This document shows positions 1,449 through 11,603 of a stretch of DNA of 20,861 nucleotides, piece by piece (positions within the stretch are counted from its first letter, which is position 1; every line of letters begins with the position of its first letter). Source of the DNA: a virus; the IMG/VR virus record IMGVR_UViG_3300034106_000623, positions 1-20,861 of that record. One strand, written 5' to 3'. A model generated the notes under the pieces. It saw only the letters and a program-made list of their open reading frames with translations. It did no database searches and was not told where the DNA came from. The position numbers and the translations under genes were made by a program.

Positions 1449-1963
1449 TATACGGGAATGTCATCCTCTAAGTCATCAAAGTTAACTTCTTTAGTAGGGT
1501 TAGCTTCTGAACCAAAGACATATGCTTCAAACTGTTTAGCTGTTGCAATAACATCTGCTACAGATTTACCAGTACCTAGTAGTTCTACTGCACTAGATAA
1601 AGAAGATTGACGAACAATAAGAATTTGTCTTGCTGCACGTTCTTCTTTAGTTTCATAATTACTACCTGTTACTCGACCACCTGTTGCTGGTTTAGATTCT
1701 GGTGTAGCCACTGATCCATCTCCTCCAATACCTGTCCATTGCCAATAACCATTAGCATCTTTAGTTGTTGTTACATTTACTTGTGTACCTTTTGTTAACT
1801 CTTTAATATAATTAAAGACAGAAGGATTACTAAAAGACATTAGCTTTTTATTAGCTACTTGTCCTTGTTCATTTTTGTATGTAACTTCAATAGATTGATA
1901 TGATCTACCATTTTTTGCTGCATGTGTATTTGGTGCACCTACGTCTACAATATTAATTAACAT
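1448..1963 (-). CDS. single-stranded DNA-binding protein (T7 gp2.5-like role)
   Basis: The 171-aa product has a beta-rich N-terminal part (about residues 1-85), a low-complexity linker and a strongly acidic C-terminal tail ending NFDDLEDDIPV. An acidic tail ending in a DDIP-type motif is the hallmark of SSBs, where it contacts the polymerase, nuclease and helicase. The position between polymerase and exonuclease supports the call. It would coat single-stranded DNA at the fork and help annealing. The start at 1963 has GGAG seven bases upstream and overlaps the polymerase stop. Sequence similarity to characterised SSBs is not obvious by eye, so the exact family is left open. Confidence 0.8.
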   Translation of the reverse strand: MLINIVDVGAPNTHAAKNGRSYQSIEVTYKNEQGQVANKKLMSFSNPSVFNYIKELTKGTQVNVTTTKDANGYWQWTGIGGDGSVATPESKPATGGRVTGSNYETKEERAARQILIVRQSSLSSAVELLGTGKSVADVIATAKQFEAYVFGSEANPTKEVNFDDLEDDIPV

Positions 1964-2672
1964 TTACTATCTCCATGTTACCCCATGTTGGCCCTACTTG
2001 ACACTCGACCCGCATAGGAAGGTTAAATTCTACTCCAAACAATTTCTTAAAGTTTGCTGGAATATCCGTAAAACATTGATCAACAATCTTTACTATACTA
2101 ATATTATCGCATACTTTAGAATCAAAGTCAACAATAATAGAATCATGTACAGTGTTGATTAACTTTACATTTTTCATATCTTTAAGTCTATTACTCAAAG
2201 ATACTCTTGCTATAGCCATCAGGTCTGCACCTAGTCCTTGAACTGGGTAGTTAAGGATTTTGGTGCGAGGCCATTTGACTTTGCCATACTTTACTTCTGG
2301 CTCATAGTTATAAACTCTGCCAGTAGGCATTGTTATCTTTCTATCTTTCATAGCTGTTGCCACAATCTTTTTATGCCATTCACCAAGCTCTGTATACTTA
2401 TTATAGAACTCGTCAATAACATTTTGCCAAAAGGATTCACTAGTACTTACATCTGTGAAATTAGTGTCGTTAGCATAACTATAAGCAGAACCACCATAGA
2501 TAAGCCTAAAGACAAAGGTCTTAGCAATGAGGCGAGAAGGAAGCCCAAAACGAAGTTGATTATCGCTGTGTTGATCAGTTCCATCTCGTATCTCCTTTAT
2601 AGCTGTTTGATCTTGTGAAAGATAAGCTGCACATACCCACTCAAGAGCCTTTGCATCCGCTTGTAAGAGCAT
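1953..2672 (-). CDS. DNA polymerase family A, C-terminal catalytic part (palm and fingers)
   Basis: This 239-aa ORF holds the whole catalytic core of a Pol I-type enzyme. Motif A is LLQADAKALEW (Asp6). Motif B is RLIAKTFVFRLIYGG with Arg47, Lys51, Phe55 and Tyr59 at the canonical four-residue spacing. It is followed by NYPVQGLGADL and motif C NTVHDSIIVDF (His176, Asp177). Phe at the selector position predicts discrimination against dideoxynucleotides, as in E. coli Pol I. The ATG at 2672 has AAGGA five bases upstream; a GTG at 2675 is too close to it. The exonuclease/thumb half is a separate ORF in another frame upstream, with 80 bases between its stop and this start. The two products must associate for a working polymerase. 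Confidence 0.93.
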   Translation of the reverse strand: MLLQADAKALEWVCAAYLSQDQTAIKEIRDGTDQHSDNQLRFGLPSRLIAKTFVFRLIYGGSAYSYANDTNFTDVSTSESFWQNVIDEFYNKYTELGEWHKKIVATAMKDRKITMPTGRVYNYEPEVKYGKVKWPRTKILNYPVQGLGADLMAIARVSLSNRLKDMKNVKLINTVHDSIIVDFDSKVCDNISIVKIVDQCFTDIPANFKKLFGVEFNLPMRVECQVGPTWGNMEIVNVN

Positions 2673-2760
2673 CACATTCCTTTTGTTTTTCTGCTACTTT
2701 AATTTGTTCTACTGTTTGTTCAGCATTTTGATCATCAAACTCTTTATTATATTCACTCAT
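2641..2760 (-). CDS. 39-aa ORF lying between the two polymerase halves
   Basis: The ATG at 2760 overlaps the stop of the polymerase N-terminal ORF (ATGAGTGA) and has GGGAG five bases upstream. The stop lies 32 bases inside the catalytic ORF. The peptide is hydrophilic and mostly helical in character (FDDQNAEQTVEQIKVAEKQK), with two cysteines near the end; the last 11 codons overlap motif A coding and may be passive. It uses the third reading frame. It could be a real small subunit that bridges the halves, a translated spacer that couples expression of the second half, or the remains of an insertion. No family is recognised. Confidence 0.55.
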   Translation of the reverse strand: MSEYNKEFDDQNAEQTVEQIKVAEKQKECDALTSGCKGS

Positions 2761-3913
2761 ATCTACTCCCGAATAATGTTTTAATTTCGCCATCAAAGTT
2801 TTGTAGGTTCGGTTTACTTGAACTAAGTCTACCTGTTCTAGCCACACATTGATTAAGCTGTCCGTGTAATCTTCCTTCATGCCAGTTCATCTCCTTTCTT
2901 AAATCAACCAGTCCTTTATAGTAAGTGGATAGTCTTTTCTCTAGCGTTGCCCTTGTTACCAAGACTTCTACTAGGTCTTTACCATACTTACTTCTAGTCT
3001 TTAAAGACTTTAAGGTCTGATCATCTGTTGAGAAAAAACCTTCTTTTGCTAACTCCGATCCTTTAATCGGGTTAATCAATCTAGGGAATGTTATTTCATG
3101 TTCTACCCACCTTTCTTTTTGTTGACCCATTCGAGTCCCTGTTTTAAATACACCAATAACTTCTCTACGCCTGACTTTAATAGTCCCGCCATATAGAAGA
3201 GAAGATACATGCTCCGTGCTATTAGGATTAAACTCCACAAGCTCGTGATATTCAAAAAGGATTTTGTCAATGATTTCAATTTGGTCTTCAAGTTCTTTAG
3301 CCAAACGATTGCTACTATTCTCATCAAATAAAAGTCCATTAAATTCCATCTCCTGTAATATAATTAAATCTTGGTTATGCAAACTAATAAGTCTTTGCAT
3401 AGGTTTTGTAGATACCGCAAATTCTTCCATCTGTTTCTCATATACTTTTTGCGTTAACTGCAAATCTCCTATTAGATATTCTTCTAAAATATCTTTAGGA
3501 ATGTTAGGTGTATCTATCTTGTTGCCCCAATACTCTGTAGCAACAACATCAAGTTTGCTACCCAGATCATAGTAAGCAGAGACACTGTTAAGACTTGGAT
3601 AGGGATATTGTTGTCCTGTAAGTATAAAATGTACCAGCTGACAATCCCAAACACGCTTACCCACAAAGTTAATGCCATACTTGCGAAGCCAATGCAAATC
3701 AAACTTAATATTAAAGCCAACCAGTATCTCACTCTCATCTATTTCCTTTTGTATTTCATCTAATTTATGGCGATAAGGTTCGTCACCGTACTCAATGCTA
3801 ATGGTACGGGGAGTAGAACCGAGGAGCCCTACATAACATAGTTTATTAGTCTCATCAAAGGGATTGCCTTTGTTGCTAATGGTTGTCTCTACATCTAGAG
3901 TTAAGCTGCGCAA
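2753..3913 (-). CDS. DNA polymerase family A, N-terminal part (3'-5' exonuclease and thumb)
   Basis: The 386-aa ORF has a proofreading exonuclease with all three motifs: LDVETT (Asp7, Glu9), VGFNIKFDLHW (Asn68, Asp72) and YLIGDLQL (Tyr146, Asp150). The thumb and start of the palm follow, ending with RTGRLSSSKPNLQN at about 359-372, the conserved family A motif just ahead of motif A. The ORF stops 14 residues after it, at FGSRYE. In intact relatives motif A follows within about a dozen residues, so the break is clean. The start is a TTG at 3913 with AAGGA eight bases upstream; no better start precedes the first exonuclease motif. Confidence 0.92.
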   Translation of the reverse strand: MRSLTLDVETTISNKGNPFDETNKLCYVGLLGSTPRTISIEYGDEPYRHKLDEIQKEIDESEILVGFNIKFDLHWLRKYGINFVGKRVWDCQLVHFILTGQQYPYPSLNSVSAYYDLGSKLDVVATEYWGNKIDTPNIPKDILEEYLIGDLQLTQKVYEKQMEEFAVSTKPMQRLISLHNQDLIILQEMEFNGLLFDENSSNRLAKELEDQIEIIDKILFEYHELVEFNPNSTEHVSSLLYGGTIKVRRREVIGVFKTGTRMGQQKERWVEHEITFPRLINPIKGSELAKEGFFSTDDQTLKSLKTRSKYGKDLVEVLVTRATLEKRLSTYYKGLVDLRKEMNWHEGRLHGQLNQCVARTGRLSSSKPNLQNFDGEIKTLFGSRYE

Positions 3914-6864: not shown

Positions 6865-7191
6865 TTATACTCCTTGAAATTTAAAACTAGAGTCAGAGTT
6901 ATTATGCTTACGATATAGTTGTTTTACTTTATTACAAATTGCAACATGTTTATTATTTGTAGATTGAAAATGTTCCGTAAGGCTTTGTTTAGTATGAATT
7001 AAATACTCATTAATATCTACAGGTATTTTTCTACCTTGTGATAGATTTTGTACAATAATAGTATCATCATTTAATATTTCTAAAATTTCATAATAACTAA
7101 CATCATCTTCAACATAACTTTTCCAATCATTCACATAATCCCAAGTTTCATCAAGATTAAAGAATGCTACTTTATCACCTATATTAAACAT
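6865..7191 (-). CDS. hypothetical protein, 108 aa, possible small beta-barrel
   Basis: The start at 7191 has GGAG nine bases upstream and lies two bases after the stop of the ATP-grasp gene, so it is co-transcribed with the ligase cassette. The N-terminal part reads FNIGDKVAFFNLDETWDY, followed by YYEILEILNDDTIIVQNL: a pattern of short strands like an SH3 or KOW-type barrel. The C-terminal part is helical with several His and Lys. The C-terminal extension of the amidotransferase (residues about 215-295) has a similar strand pattern. Function is unknown; a link to the cassette is inferred from position. Confidence 0.65.
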   Translation of the reverse strand: MFNIGDKVAFFNLDETWDYVNDWKSYVEDDVSYYEILEILNDDTIIVQNLSQGRKIPVDINEYLIHTKQSLTEHFQSTNNKHVAICNKVKQLYRKHNNSDSSFKFQGV

Positions 7192-7193
7192 AA

Positions 7194-7940
7194 TTACAGA
7201 CTCCTATAATAATTGTATATTGCTTTCGCATATTTGTCAAGCGTTGTTCCTTCTAAACCTGGTGCAGTATTAACTTCAAACACAAAAAACTTATTATCAA
7301 TTAGTCGGTGCCCAATATCAACGGCACCGAAATCAAGGCCCAATAATTTAACAGCCCTACGGGCTGATAATAGTAGCTCTTCGGACGGGGCTATTTCTGC
7401 CCTTGCGTAGACCCATCCGTTGCTATGGTTTCTAATGCCATTGCCATTACCATAGCCTAATTTCTTTTTCTTTTGTTGAACATCAATTACTTTATCTTTA
7501 AAGACATGAACACGATACTCGTGCTTATGTCTAGTTGCAACAGTATATAGTGGAGCATCAACAATTTCATAATTGTTCGTGGCTATAACAATGCCACGAC
7601 CACTATGTCCTGTAGTTGTAGTCCTACAATATATATCCCTACCATTAGCAAGTTCATATATTTCTTGTCTACTGATAGACCATTTAGGAAGATCATTAAA
7701 TCCATTTTGAGAAAGTATATTGAATGTTGTAAGTTTATCACAAGCTAATTGAATAGCATGAGGTTTATTTAAATCCTGCTCCATCCACCTGAAATGAGGT
7801 GGAGTGGAATTGCCCCAGTTTATAATGACATCTTTACGTCTAGCATTATACGATGGCGAAACCCTTAGAATACCAAGGGTTCTAGCCAATCGCTTAGCAG
7901 ATAGACTACCTATCTTATAAGGAAAAAGTTTTAAACTCAT
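7194..7940 (-). CDS. ATP-grasp carboxylate-amine ligase, RimK-like
   Basis: The 248-aa product shows the late ATP-grasp motifs: EYRVHVFKDKVIDVQQKKK (about 142-160), then LLGLDFGAVDIG and FFVFEVNTAPGLEGT near residues 197-230, where the Glu and Asn of FEVN bind Mg-ATP. GHSGRGIVIA near 115 fits the ATP-binding loop. Members join a carboxylate to an amine through an acyl-phosphate. The start overlaps the stop of the amidotransferase gene as ATGA. With the amidotransferase and amidoligase it forms a coupled cassette. The N-terminal preATP domain seems short compared with cellular RimK (about 300 aa), as is common in phage forms. The substrate is unknown. Confidence 0.88.
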   Translation of the reverse strand: MSLKLFPYKIGSLSAKRLARTLGILRVSPSYNARRKDVIINWGNSTPPHFRWMEQDLNKPHAIQLACDKLTTFNILSQNGFNDLPKWSISRQEIYELANGRDIYCRTTTTGHSGRGIVIATNNYEIVDAPLYTVATRHKHEYRVHVFKDKVIDVQQKKKKLGYGNGNGIRNHSNGWVYARAEIAPSEELLLSARRAVKLLGLDFGAVDIGHRLIDNKFFVFEVNTAPGLEGTTLDKYAKAIYNYYRSL

Positions 7941-8863
7941 TTAGTTTTTCCTTTCAATAGATATGGTGATGCATAGTTATGATATGCAGGTACACCTACA
8001 GGATCAATAGAGTCATCTTCAAACTCATCTACAAAAGATAAAGAATGATAAGGAACATTGTAAAGAAATGAAGACTTACCGTTGTAATCATCATGCATTA
8101 GATCACATGTAAAGTCTTTGTTAACTGCAACAATTTCACATAGTTCACCAGTTTCATATACTGTAAGAGTAGCAGGGTCAGCTACATCTTCTAGTAATTC
8201 TACCATTGCACCTATTGCAATTACTTTAGGTTTAGGTATTGTTACTTTAGTTTTATATGTAGCTACTGGTTTACGCCAGTTACCATAACTGTAATCAGTA
8301 TCTTTCCAAGTAGTTACAGGTGCAACATAAGGTTTGTAACTTGTATTGGAATACCAAACTTCATCATCCCACACACCCTTGTGTTCATTAAAGATATTGT
8401 GATTTCCATGACGATCAAGAAAGATAAGTTTACTATAACCAATACGAGCTTCAATAAGATCTTTTAGTGGATCTTGGAAGATAGCCAAGTTACCCCACTT
8501 GTTGACAAGCGGTTGAAGAACGTTGTTATTAAATCCAATGGTATCGCTGTGATCAGTATCACCGAAACCATTGATAATGCCATTATGGACAAAGCCAACC
8601 GCATTGTTAATTGCAAAGGGATGACAGTTTGTTTTATCAATTTTACCATGAGTCTTTATCCTAAAATGTAAGACAGCTTTTTTGTCTTGATGTTTAACAT
8701 ATTCTTTATAAAAATCTTTTAATGAAAAGAAACCTTTTTGAATATGTAATTGTTTATCTTCTGCATACATGAAGCCTGCCCCATCGGGGTTGGAGTCATA
8801 GCATTCTTTAAGTGTGTTGTAAGGAATAATTTTTCCTTCAGGTTTATAAATTGCAATGCACAT
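7937..8863 (-). CDS. class II glutamine amidotransferase-like protein (Ntn hydrolase)
   Basis: The sequence begins MCIAIYKPEG, giving the N-terminal Cys nucleophile after Met removal. Family features follow in order: SNPDGAGFMY (about 24-33), VLHFRIKTHG near 64-73 with the Arg that holds the substrate carboxylate, and VGFVHNGIING near 89-99 with the Asn-Gly of the oxyanion hole. This domain (about 1-190) would release ammonia from glutamine. A second part, about 195-308, is beta-rich (VIAIGAMVELLEDVADPA, then VPYHSLSFVDE) and looks like a small barrel domain. The start overlaps the amidoligase stop as TAATG. It could supply ammonia to the neighbouring ligases or act as an amidohydrolase. Confidence 0.86.
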   Translation of the reverse strand: MCIAIYKPEGKIIPYNTLKECYDSNPDGAGFMYAEDKQLHIQKGFFSLKDFYKEYVKHQDKKAVLHFRIKTHGKIDKTNCHPFAINNAVGFVHNGIINGFGDTDHSDTIGFNNNVLQPLVNKWGNLAIFQDPLKDLIEARIGYSKLIFLDRHGNHNIFNEHKGVWDDEVWYSNTSYKPYVAPVTTWKDTDYSYGNWRKPVATYKTKVTIPKPKVIAIGAMVELLEDVADPATLTVYETGELCEIVAVNKDFTCDLMHDDYNGKSSFLYNVPYHSLSFVDEFEDDSIDPVGVPAYHNYASPYLLKGKTK

Positions 8864-10413
8864 TATTGATATCCTTTCAAATGATTACTAAGTTCTGGGA
8901 ACATACGTTTGCGATTTGATAACCACGCAACAAATGCTTCGTGATGTGTTTGTTTCTTTAACGCTTCGTTAGATTGAGCAGGCATACAATAGTCTACTAA
9001 AGCTTGAACAAATTGTAAACGCATTGCAAACTCTTTGTAATTCATTGGAGTTGCAAACAGTCTGATTTCTACTGTGTTTTGATTGTTAAGATTTAATGCA
9101 TTGTATCTGTCACCACCATTCTTGTAACGCCAAGGGAATGTGATGGTACGTTCATCACTCATACGAGCATATTGATTATCTATACGACCTGCAATATGAT
9201 GAATGAATTGTTTGTTATCTAAACGATTAAGAAATTCAGTCATCTTGCCAAGAGTCAACTGGCTCAAGGGTTTCCGACTGACATGAACATGCATACCAAC
9301 ATTCTTTTCTGTTTTAAGATCAGGTGGAATGTTGTCATAGAATTTCTTGAATACATCAAGATGAATATCTAATGTTGCAGGACATGTTACAATTTCAAAA
9401 CCATTACGAATTGAACCATCAGATTTCATAAGAGCATGACCATGCATTAGTTTACCTACTGCAAGTTGTGCTCGATCTCTGTTGTTAGTCTCATACTCAA
9501 GCTCACAACCAAGATAGACAGTATTAGGTCTGACCTTTGTTGCTTTAAACTTAAGCATACCTTCAACGCGTGTTGAATAGTTATGAATTTTAAAACTTGC
9601 ATCTAAACATTTGTTACATACACCATCAATGGTTAGATCAGATATAGATTCGTTTCCACATTGTGTACATTCTACAATGTCTACTTCATTGCGATTCCAT
9701 ACTTGATTGCTGTGATAAAACTGTTCATCTGTTAACCAGATGTCATAGTTATCATGGAATCTATATCCATATTGTGTTGGATCAGTGTTTCTGTGTATCT
9801 GAACCCACTGTGTAGCACCTAGTCTTACACGTCGTTGCAAACCATCAACATAATAATCATTTGTTAATGCATCTTTGTAATAAGACCATTCAGGTATATC
9901 TTGTACTGTAAGATAGTCTTCAGTAGATACATCATCATTAAGACAACTAAGTTGCACAGCTTTACTAAGCATAAGTTGAGTAACCCAACTAGGTCTAAGT
10001 GTATTAGAACGAAGTCTTTTACGCAACGCACCAAAGAAACCTTTCTTAAGACTCTCGTCTTTGTTGTGAAAGTTAGGTGGGTTAGCTTTGTAATATAATG
10101 CATCAATGATTGTTGTTGCATTAATTCTGTAACTAGGATTTGTTGCAAGACCTGTTTCATAGGCAGCATCACGATAAAAATTATAACAAGTTAATCGTCT
10201 ACTACCATTTGTTTCATCATTGGTATAGAATTGCAAGACACGCTGGTCTTTATACCAAAGAGTTGATAGTGTAAAGGTTTTATTAACATTTGCTTGCTGT
10301 TCATAGTCCCATTGTCTATCTTCCTTTGTCCAATATGTTTGACGAATGTCAGGATGTGCCCATCCAAACATATTGAAACGTTTGTTAAAATCTACAAAAC
10401 TATACGGTTTCAT
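8863..10413 (-). CDS. phage amidoligase (glutamine synthetase-like COOH-NH2 ligase)
   Basis: The C-terminal half matches the amidoligase fold: YLGCELEYETN at about residue 296 with metal-binding Glu, LMKSDGSIRNGFEIVT with the substrate Asp and Glu, VGMHVHVSR with the paired His, and TVEIRLFATPMNYKEF with Glu and Arg. A zinc ribbon (CTQCG and CNKC, about 248-272) lies just before it. The N-terminal 240 residues are aromatic-rich, unlike short family members, and of unknown role. The enzyme would form an amide or isopeptide bond using ATP. I choose ATG 10413 (AAAGGAG six bases upstream); the ATG at 10419 abuts that site. The product is 516 aa. Confidence 0.88.
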   Translation of the reverse strand: MKPYSFVDFNKRFNMFGWAHPDIRQTYWTKEDRQWDYEQQANVNKTFTLSTLWYKDQRVLQFYTNDETNGSRRLTCYNFYRDAAYETGLATNPSYRINATTIIDALYYKANPPNFHNKDESLKKGFFGALRKRLRSNTLRPSWVTQLMLSKAVQLSCLNDDVSTEDYLTVQDIPEWSYYKDALTNDYYVDGLQRRVRLGATQWVQIHRNTDPTQYGYRFHDNYDIWLTDEQFYHSNQVWNRNEVDIVECTQCGNESISDLTIDGVCNKCLDASFKIHNYSTRVEGMLKFKATKVRPNTVYLGCELEYETNNRDRAQLAVGKLMHGHALMKSDGSIRNGFEIVTCPATLDIHLDVFKKFYDNIPPDLKTEKNVGMHVHVSRKPLSQLTLGKMTEFLNRLDNKQFIHHIAGRIDNQYARMSDERTITFPWRYKNGGDRYNALNLNNQNTVEIRLFATPMNYKEFAMRLQFVQALVDYCMPAQSNEALKKQTHHEAFVAWLSNRKRMFPELSNHLKGYQ

Positions 10414-10585
10414 CGACATCTCCTTTCATAGTTTCTATGAGATCCTTTGGTGGTTTTTTGTATGCACGGACAACAATGAATTCTTTTTTGTCCTTGCCCC
10501 ATTTTACACGGGCACAATTATCCCAACCATTTCCCCAGAATACATCGAAAAGATTTCGAGTGATATATTTATATTGTAATATCAT
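10400..10585 (-). CDS. 61-aa hypothetical protein leading the ligase cassette
   Basis: The start at 10585 has TGGAG eight bases upstream, and the stop lies 14 bases inside the amidoligase gene, so the two are translationally linked. The peptide is aromatic and basic (NLFDVFWGNGWDNCARVKWG at 12-31), with KKEFIVVRAYKKPP following. It looks like a compact folded domain, not a shadow ORF. It lies between stem element copy 2 and the amidoligase. No family is recognised. Confidence 0.65.
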   Translation of the reverse strand: MILQYKYITRNLFDVFWGNGWDNCARVKWGKDKKEFIVVRAYKKPPKDLIETMKGDVDETV

Positions 10586-11553: not shown

Positions 11554-11580
11554 AAAAAAAAAGCCCTGAATTAACAGGGC
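11554..11580 (-). terminator. intrinsic terminator after the first leftward gene
   Basis: On the minus strand GCCCTG, a six-base loop TTAATT and CAGGGC are followed directly by nine T residues. This is a textbook Rho-independent terminator. It lies 23 bases past the stop of the 125-aa gene and ahead of all other leftward genes, so it should cap the leftward transcript unless read-through, antitermination or a new promoter operates. Confidence 0.92.
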
Positions 11581-11603
11581 TTAAACAATGGAGAATATAT
11601 AAC

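Follow-up and report, generated by a model that had tools for sequence, protein, structure and literature searches.

The virus record analyzed here (IMG/VR IMGVR_UViG_3300034106_000623, 20.9 kb; this whole stretch is called the window below) carries on its minus strand, from 10413 to 7194, three overlapping genes encoding an amidoligase of glutamine-synthetase fold (AL), a class II glutamine amidotransferase (GAT), and a RimK-type ATP-grasp ligase (ATPG), in that order. The three products probably form a translationally coupled pathway for making and editing amide (peptide) bonds by glutamine or γ-glutamyl chemistry; we put the probability of this reading at about 0.6, a figure for the pathway and not for its substrate. 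AL (8863–10413, 516 amino acids from its conserved start) shares one base with GAT (7937–8863, 308 amino acids) in the sequence TAATG, and GAT shares four bases, ATGA, with ATPG (7194–7940, 248 amino acids). The AL reading frame opens upstream at an ATG at 10419 (518 amino acids; AL residues are numbered from this codon), and comparison with relatives places the conserved start, MKPYSF with an AAAGGAG Shine-Dalgarno sequence, at 10413. An earlier annotation made from the letters of the window (the sequence-only reading) had proposed the same three overlapping genes, over the same span and with the same AL start, and had called them two different carboxylate-amine ligases and a Cys-nucleophile amidotransferase; the families, folds, and intact catalytic residues described next bear out both proposals.

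GAT scored 8.6e-4 against GATase_4, below the family cut-off, and has the GlmS/EgtC fold with all catalytic residues present; in structure comparisons its model matched the GlmS glutaminase (Z 13.4) and EgtC (Z 12.6). Residues M1, C2, R68, T71, G73, N94, G95, and D107 are invariant and H72 is also kept, with R68, T71, G73, N94, G95, and D107 invariant across 15 divergent phage GATs as well. We take R68, T71, H72, G73, N94, G95, and D107 to correspond to the glutamine-holding positions of GlmS. Judged from sequence and model, GAT has the marks of a class II (N-terminal nucleophile, Ntn) enzyme, namely a Cys directly after the initiator Met, glutamine-binding residues, and the fold, and Cys2 is its predicted nucleophile. 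A C-terminal SH3-like barrel is predicted at residues 213–279 (8027–8227; SH3 matches of Z 7–8.6 over ~60 residues), and the tail beyond it is conserved and poorly modelled (predicted local distance difference test, pLDDT, <50).

AL matched PF12224 with an E-value of 2.4e-5, above the family cut-off, and phrog_16683 at 9e-18. Its catalytic domain (residues 296–518; 8866–9534) contains the motifs GxExE, DGS..GFE, GMHVHxS, RYN..N, and TxExR, and keeps the acidic metal-site residues E306, E308, E342, and E451, assigned by motif, together with H377/H379 and R453. The model of this domain was closest to YbdK (Z 9.3) and to glutamine synthetases (Z 8–9), with PafA and Dop ranking lower. These Z scores are modest and agree with the motifs and with the profile match of the domain to its homolog in the large amidoligase cassettes of other phages (hhalign 98%, 1.5e-13). 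Upstream lies a zinc ribbon, CxxC...CxxC (C251, C254, C268, C271; 9607–9669), invariant in 24 relatives, preceded by an N-terminal part reaching to about residue 250 (9670–10413) that is confidently modelled (block pLDDT mostly 84–96) and has so far gone unrecognized as a family. Pfam and PDB sequence searches with this part gave no match, and the ideas that it is a fused form of the ~190-residue protein of larger cassettes or of the PF14395 ligase were rejected for lack of profile similarity; it may still adopt a known fold. It is common to phage MEP401 and a public uncultured-phage amidoligase, MEP401 being the only one of the isolates compared that clearly shares it. A PADLOC scan for defense genes, which uses a limited library, returned nothing convincing, the one weak match (REase, 1.6e-3) falling at the zinc ribbon.

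ATPG matched phrog_2599 at 1e-71, a family that PHROGs labels S6 glutaminyl transferase, and TIGR00768 (rimK family) at 1.7e-9, below the NCBIfam cut-off. Over most of its length it aligned with the RimK structures 7qys (1.4e-8) and 4iwx (2.8e-7), and RimK-type α-L-glutamate ligases were the only solved structures matched at E<1e-3. The Mg and ATP residues K69, E141, D208, E222, and N224 are kept, with R106 replacing the second ATP lysine. Ratios of nonsynonymous to synonymous substitution rates (dN/dS) were 0.14–0.24 for AL, GAT, and those ATPG pairs having the same middle block, the block being treated below. The catalytic residues, folds, and purifying dN/dS values indicate that all three proteins are very probably active enzymes. 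The sequence-only reading had named loss of catalytic residues as telling against it; on alignment they are kept within the clade.

Linkage among relatives, whose loci and records carry L and G numbers below, was assessed at two distances. All 31 IMG/VR contigs that hold the three genes have them on one strand in the order AL, GAT, ATPG, with the one-base overlap kept in 25 and the ATGA overlap in 18, so the arrangement is not a matter of chance. Two or more small genes separate GAT from ATPG in three of the remoter contigs. Beyond the clade, we inspected 17 ATPG-bearing isolates from many lineages, and every one had an AL with the same invariant active-site residues together with a neighboring gene annotated as class II GAT. 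A PF14395-type ligase was also present in 15 of the 17, and frequent extras in the larger cassettes are a γ-glutamyl cyclotransferase (GGACT), a peptidase C26, and the ~190-residue protein; in C75C1 and ctfjg026 a class II GAT and a GGACT are fused in one protein (L096:5001–5897, L097:5001–6218). Neither the PF14395 (COOH-NH2) ligase nor GGACT was found in the window-clade records G001–G025, several of which are fragments; phiM6 also lacks the former, and CVT22 and VPp1 the latter. The conserved order anticipated by the sequence-only reading thus stands within the clade and not outside it, where linkage persists in other orders (GAT-AL-ATPG in L118; AL-ATPG-GAT in phiM6) and where AL and GAT also occur without ATPG, as in the complete ctgrD200 record. 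Of five distant loci drawn from bacterial genome collections, four (L118 among them) have AL next to GAT, and such adjacency is found in phages, or contigs resembling phages, of Mycobacterium, Methylophilales, Veillonella, a gammaproteobacterium, and a clostridium. Because AL and GAT occur without ATPG and the extra genes are patchy, gene content marks AL and GAT as the core pair, ATPG as a frequent partner, and the remaining genes as accessory. Chromosomal operons were also considered as a clue to the substrate; none of the five loci from a single genome scan, which were mostly phage-like, was informative.

The sequence-only reading treated the cassette as unusual for a phage, a view that finds no support. 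Two papers describe phage cassettes of amidoligase, class II GAT, and ATP-grasp genes, known since 2009, in phiEco32, LUZ24/tf, 7-11, RIO-1/HP1, and CW02, among others (PMC5498523, PMC10580990). Like the phiEco32/LUZ24-type cassettes, the window has a PF12224 amidoligase with an intact active site, a class II GAT, and a phrog_2599 ATP-grasp; like most of them, and as the sequence-only reading had it, the set stands in the early arm, with the primase/helicase and PolA genes directly downstream. In contrast to the large cassettes, the window has no PF14395 ligase, ~190-residue partner, GGACT, or peptidase C26, its AL carries the extra N-terminal part and zinc ribbon, and its GAT is short with the SH3-like C-terminal domain. 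The Methylophilales phages MEP401 and MEP402 (PMC10580990) also have adjacent AL (36% identical) and GAT (49–50%) genes upstream of primase, helicase, and split PolA; unlike the window, the complete MEP401 record lacks an ATP-grasp of this family. AL likewise adjoins GAT in mycobacteriophage Marvin (gp105-gp106), although identity is 25–29%, the genome is of a different type, and an ATP-grasp of this family is again missing. Among characterized enzymes, the window GAT has an EgtC-like fold and the window AL a fold like that of YbdK and glutamine synthetase ligases, although sequence identity is low. ATPG resembles RimK, the S6:glutamate ligase, in its ATP-grasp profile and in the Mg and ATP ligands K69, D208, E222, and N224, and differs from it in R106, a shorter N-terminal domain, and an exchanged lid block. 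By gene content, the window cassette is a reduced form of an already known kind of phage cassette. We know of no earlier description of this reduced architecture or of the exchanged ATPG block. A large cassette in Stenotrophomonas phage StenR_269 (L136, 3199–10573) combines GGACT and GAT with one gene annotated as glutamine synthetase and another, for an ATP-grasp, annotated as D-Ala-D-Ala ligase; a second AL-GAT pair follows.

In the proposed pathway, GAT, once Met1 is lost, would use Cys2 to open a γ-glutamyl amide (glutamine or γ-Glu-X), freeing ammonia or an amine. AL, with ATP and Mg, would activate a carboxylate as an acyl phosphate and join it to the ammonia or amine from GAT; ATPG would likewise activate a second carboxylate and add an amino acid, probably one like glutamate. 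We infer that the three enzymes act on one substrate. Two ATP-dependent amide formers and one γ-glutamyl opener would fit either ammonia transfer, in which GAT feeds AL, or γ-glutamyl protection and release, of which EgtA/EgtC and butirosin BtrJ/BtrG are examples. The sequence-only reading listed too wide a set of roles; comparative evidence favors γ-glutamyl chemistry, probably on a small peptide, because sister cassettes carry γ-glutamyl enzymes. In directed evolution of a Pseudomonas phage, phages sampled after 15 and after 30 rounds both had missense changes, at different positions, in amidoligase and GlmS-like amidotransferase genes (PMC11450229), suggesting that selection acts on the pair during infection; the changes do not indicate its product.

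Several observations weigh against a single coupled pathway or against its proposed target. The complete records of MEP401 and Marvin have no ATPG of this family, which hence is not obligatory; variation in the ATPG block does not follow that in AL and GAT, which weakens the case for one fixed three-step pathway; and the AL catalytic model has low-confidence loops. The substrate is one that we infer, and the RimK-type ligases known to us act on proteins or cofactors and not on peptidoglycan.

What the cassette acts on is the point at which readings diverge. Two papers, crediting Iyer et al. and Hardies 2013, predict that phage cassettes modify peptidoglycan side chains and bring about superinfection exclusion (PMC5498523, PMC10580990). 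In line with that prediction, our tentative candidate is a stem peptide of the host peptidoglycan, or a precursor of it; a change made there early in infection would shut out other phages or alter the properties of the wall. Nearly as plausible, though still doubtful, is a small soluble γ-glutamyl peptide or amide in place of a wall change, such as an inhibitor or a metabolite resembling glutathione or an ergothioneine intermediate. EgtC, which is among the closest folds to GAT, cleaves the γ-Glu bond formed by the GS-fold-type ligase EgtA, and the GGACT of the phage tf sister cassette is annotated as BtrG-like, BtrG being the enzyme that removes the γ-Glu protecting group in butirosin synthesis. 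GGACT, however, was not found in the window-clade records searched, and GAT ties between EgtC and the GlmS glutaminase. The sequence-only reading had stated that no phage substrate was established, and the literature we searched agrees, with no report of a product.

The family label and structural matches of ATPG would suit an enzyme that modifies the C-termini of proteins, alone or together with AL, as RimK does on ribosomal protein S6, taking over translation or another host machine; yet RimK works without AL or GAT, the common tails of small cassette-side proteins that might have served as acceptors are mostly overlapping Shine-Dalgarno sequences, and we consider such a role unlikely. Poorer still are the prospects of a set of auxiliary metabolic genes that salvages nitrogen or glutamine and yields no special product, a role suggested for a Planctomycetes phage whose gene set is similar (PMC10945688): two ATP-consuming ligases make a poor route to nitrogen release, and the gene coupling and block exchange indicate a specific product. 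It is equally improbable that AL, GAT, and ATPG are mere neighbors acting separately. The occurrence of AL and GAT without ATPG, the independent evolution of the ATPG block, and the variation of gene order by lineage are what such neighbors would give, but the constant and mostly overlapping order in the clade, the co-occurrence in all 17 isolates, and the re-linking of the genes in another order in L118 argue for joint function.

The central subdomain of ATPG (residues ~67–136; 7533–7742), which by alignment is the RimK subdomain that closes over ATP, is swapped in frame between close relatives: the flanks are 92–97% and the block 41–51% identical. Between the window and L003, identity is 92% in the flanks, 41% in the block, and 98% in the helicase; the corresponding values are 97%, 46%, and 99% for L025 and L053, and 94%, 51%, and 94% for L005 and L007, whose GATs are identical. 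Block distances were uncorrelated with helicase distances (r 0.04, permutation p 0.23), whereas those of the C-terminal part followed them (r 0.76, p 0.001). At 70% identity, the blocks of 31 phages form eight clusters and the flanks one, and catalytic residues within the block are retained. AL and GAT track helicase distances less well than primase does, so the whole cassette has recombined, yet the ATPG block stands out. Ongoing positive selection was not seen inside block types (dN/dS ~0.15–0.38, purifying), and co-variation of the block with AL or GAT regions was weak at most (partial r no higher than 0.19 over many windows). In a coarse check for the same exchange in kuraviruses and VPp1-like phages, ATP-grasp genes of close relatives aligned in one piece over their whole length; on these alignments the exchange seems particular to the window clade. 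The readings we favor are that a specificity element is being exchanged or that the enzyme is escaping a sensor in the host, and it is possible, if short of probable, that in-frame exchange maintains the diversity of the lid as a specificity or recognition cassette, with at least eight block types among otherwise similar phages. The ATPG of each phage would then add another residue, use another acceptor, or avoid a host factor by which the enzyme is sensed. The swaps may instead reflect plain recombination at conserved borders without selection. One contig (L087, in G030) has two ATP-grasp copies at opposite ends, 643–1389 and 46305–47069.

Phage amidoligase cassettes have been annotated for more than 15 years, and the three-gene form, having no accessory genes, offers a compact system in which to find their product. 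The natural block exchange supplies ready ATPG variants for comparing products, and the kuraviruses of an E. coli phage collection offer a tractable laboratory model, several of Bas86–Bas93 being among the ATP-grasp matches.

On the minus strand of the window, from ~11.5 kb downward, the cassette is followed by primase, DnaB-like helicase, split PolA, exonuclease, and endonuclease genes, with terminase and portal on the plus strand. A terminator-like hairpin (11561–11582, minus strand; 8-pair stem and T-run) suggests an upstream border, past which the operon would begin; six terminator-like sites were found in the region versus 2.5 expected. A conserved 61-residue open reading frame (10400–10585, minus strand), present in MEP401 too, overlaps the AL start and contains the AL Shine-Dalgarno sequence in its 3' end. 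Adjoining ATPG is a gene for a small protein that is SH3/KOW-like by sequence pattern (6865–7191, minus strand), linked in most relatives. Arrays of small SH3/KOW-like proteins with near-identical C-terminal tails are interleaved with ligase genes in L089 (CVT22) and L090 (CW02): ~16 in CVT22 end in LENE and ~8 in CW02 in LEENV, and paralogs in L051, L056, and L087 end in RKEQGY.F. The idea that these tails are a RimK-type acceptor tag was largely rejected, their codons (GGAG, GAGGAG, AAGGAG) being the Shine-Dalgarno sequence of the next overlapping gene; a few tails have no following start (CVT22 7185), and duplication explains them equally well. The nearest long relative of the window is L003, a 47.7-kb IMG/VR contig with 93–99% identity across most of it. 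PolA (1953–3913) is split into two reading frames around a 79-residue open reading frame (2641–2880), an arrangement that matches MEP401, for which an intron was suggested.

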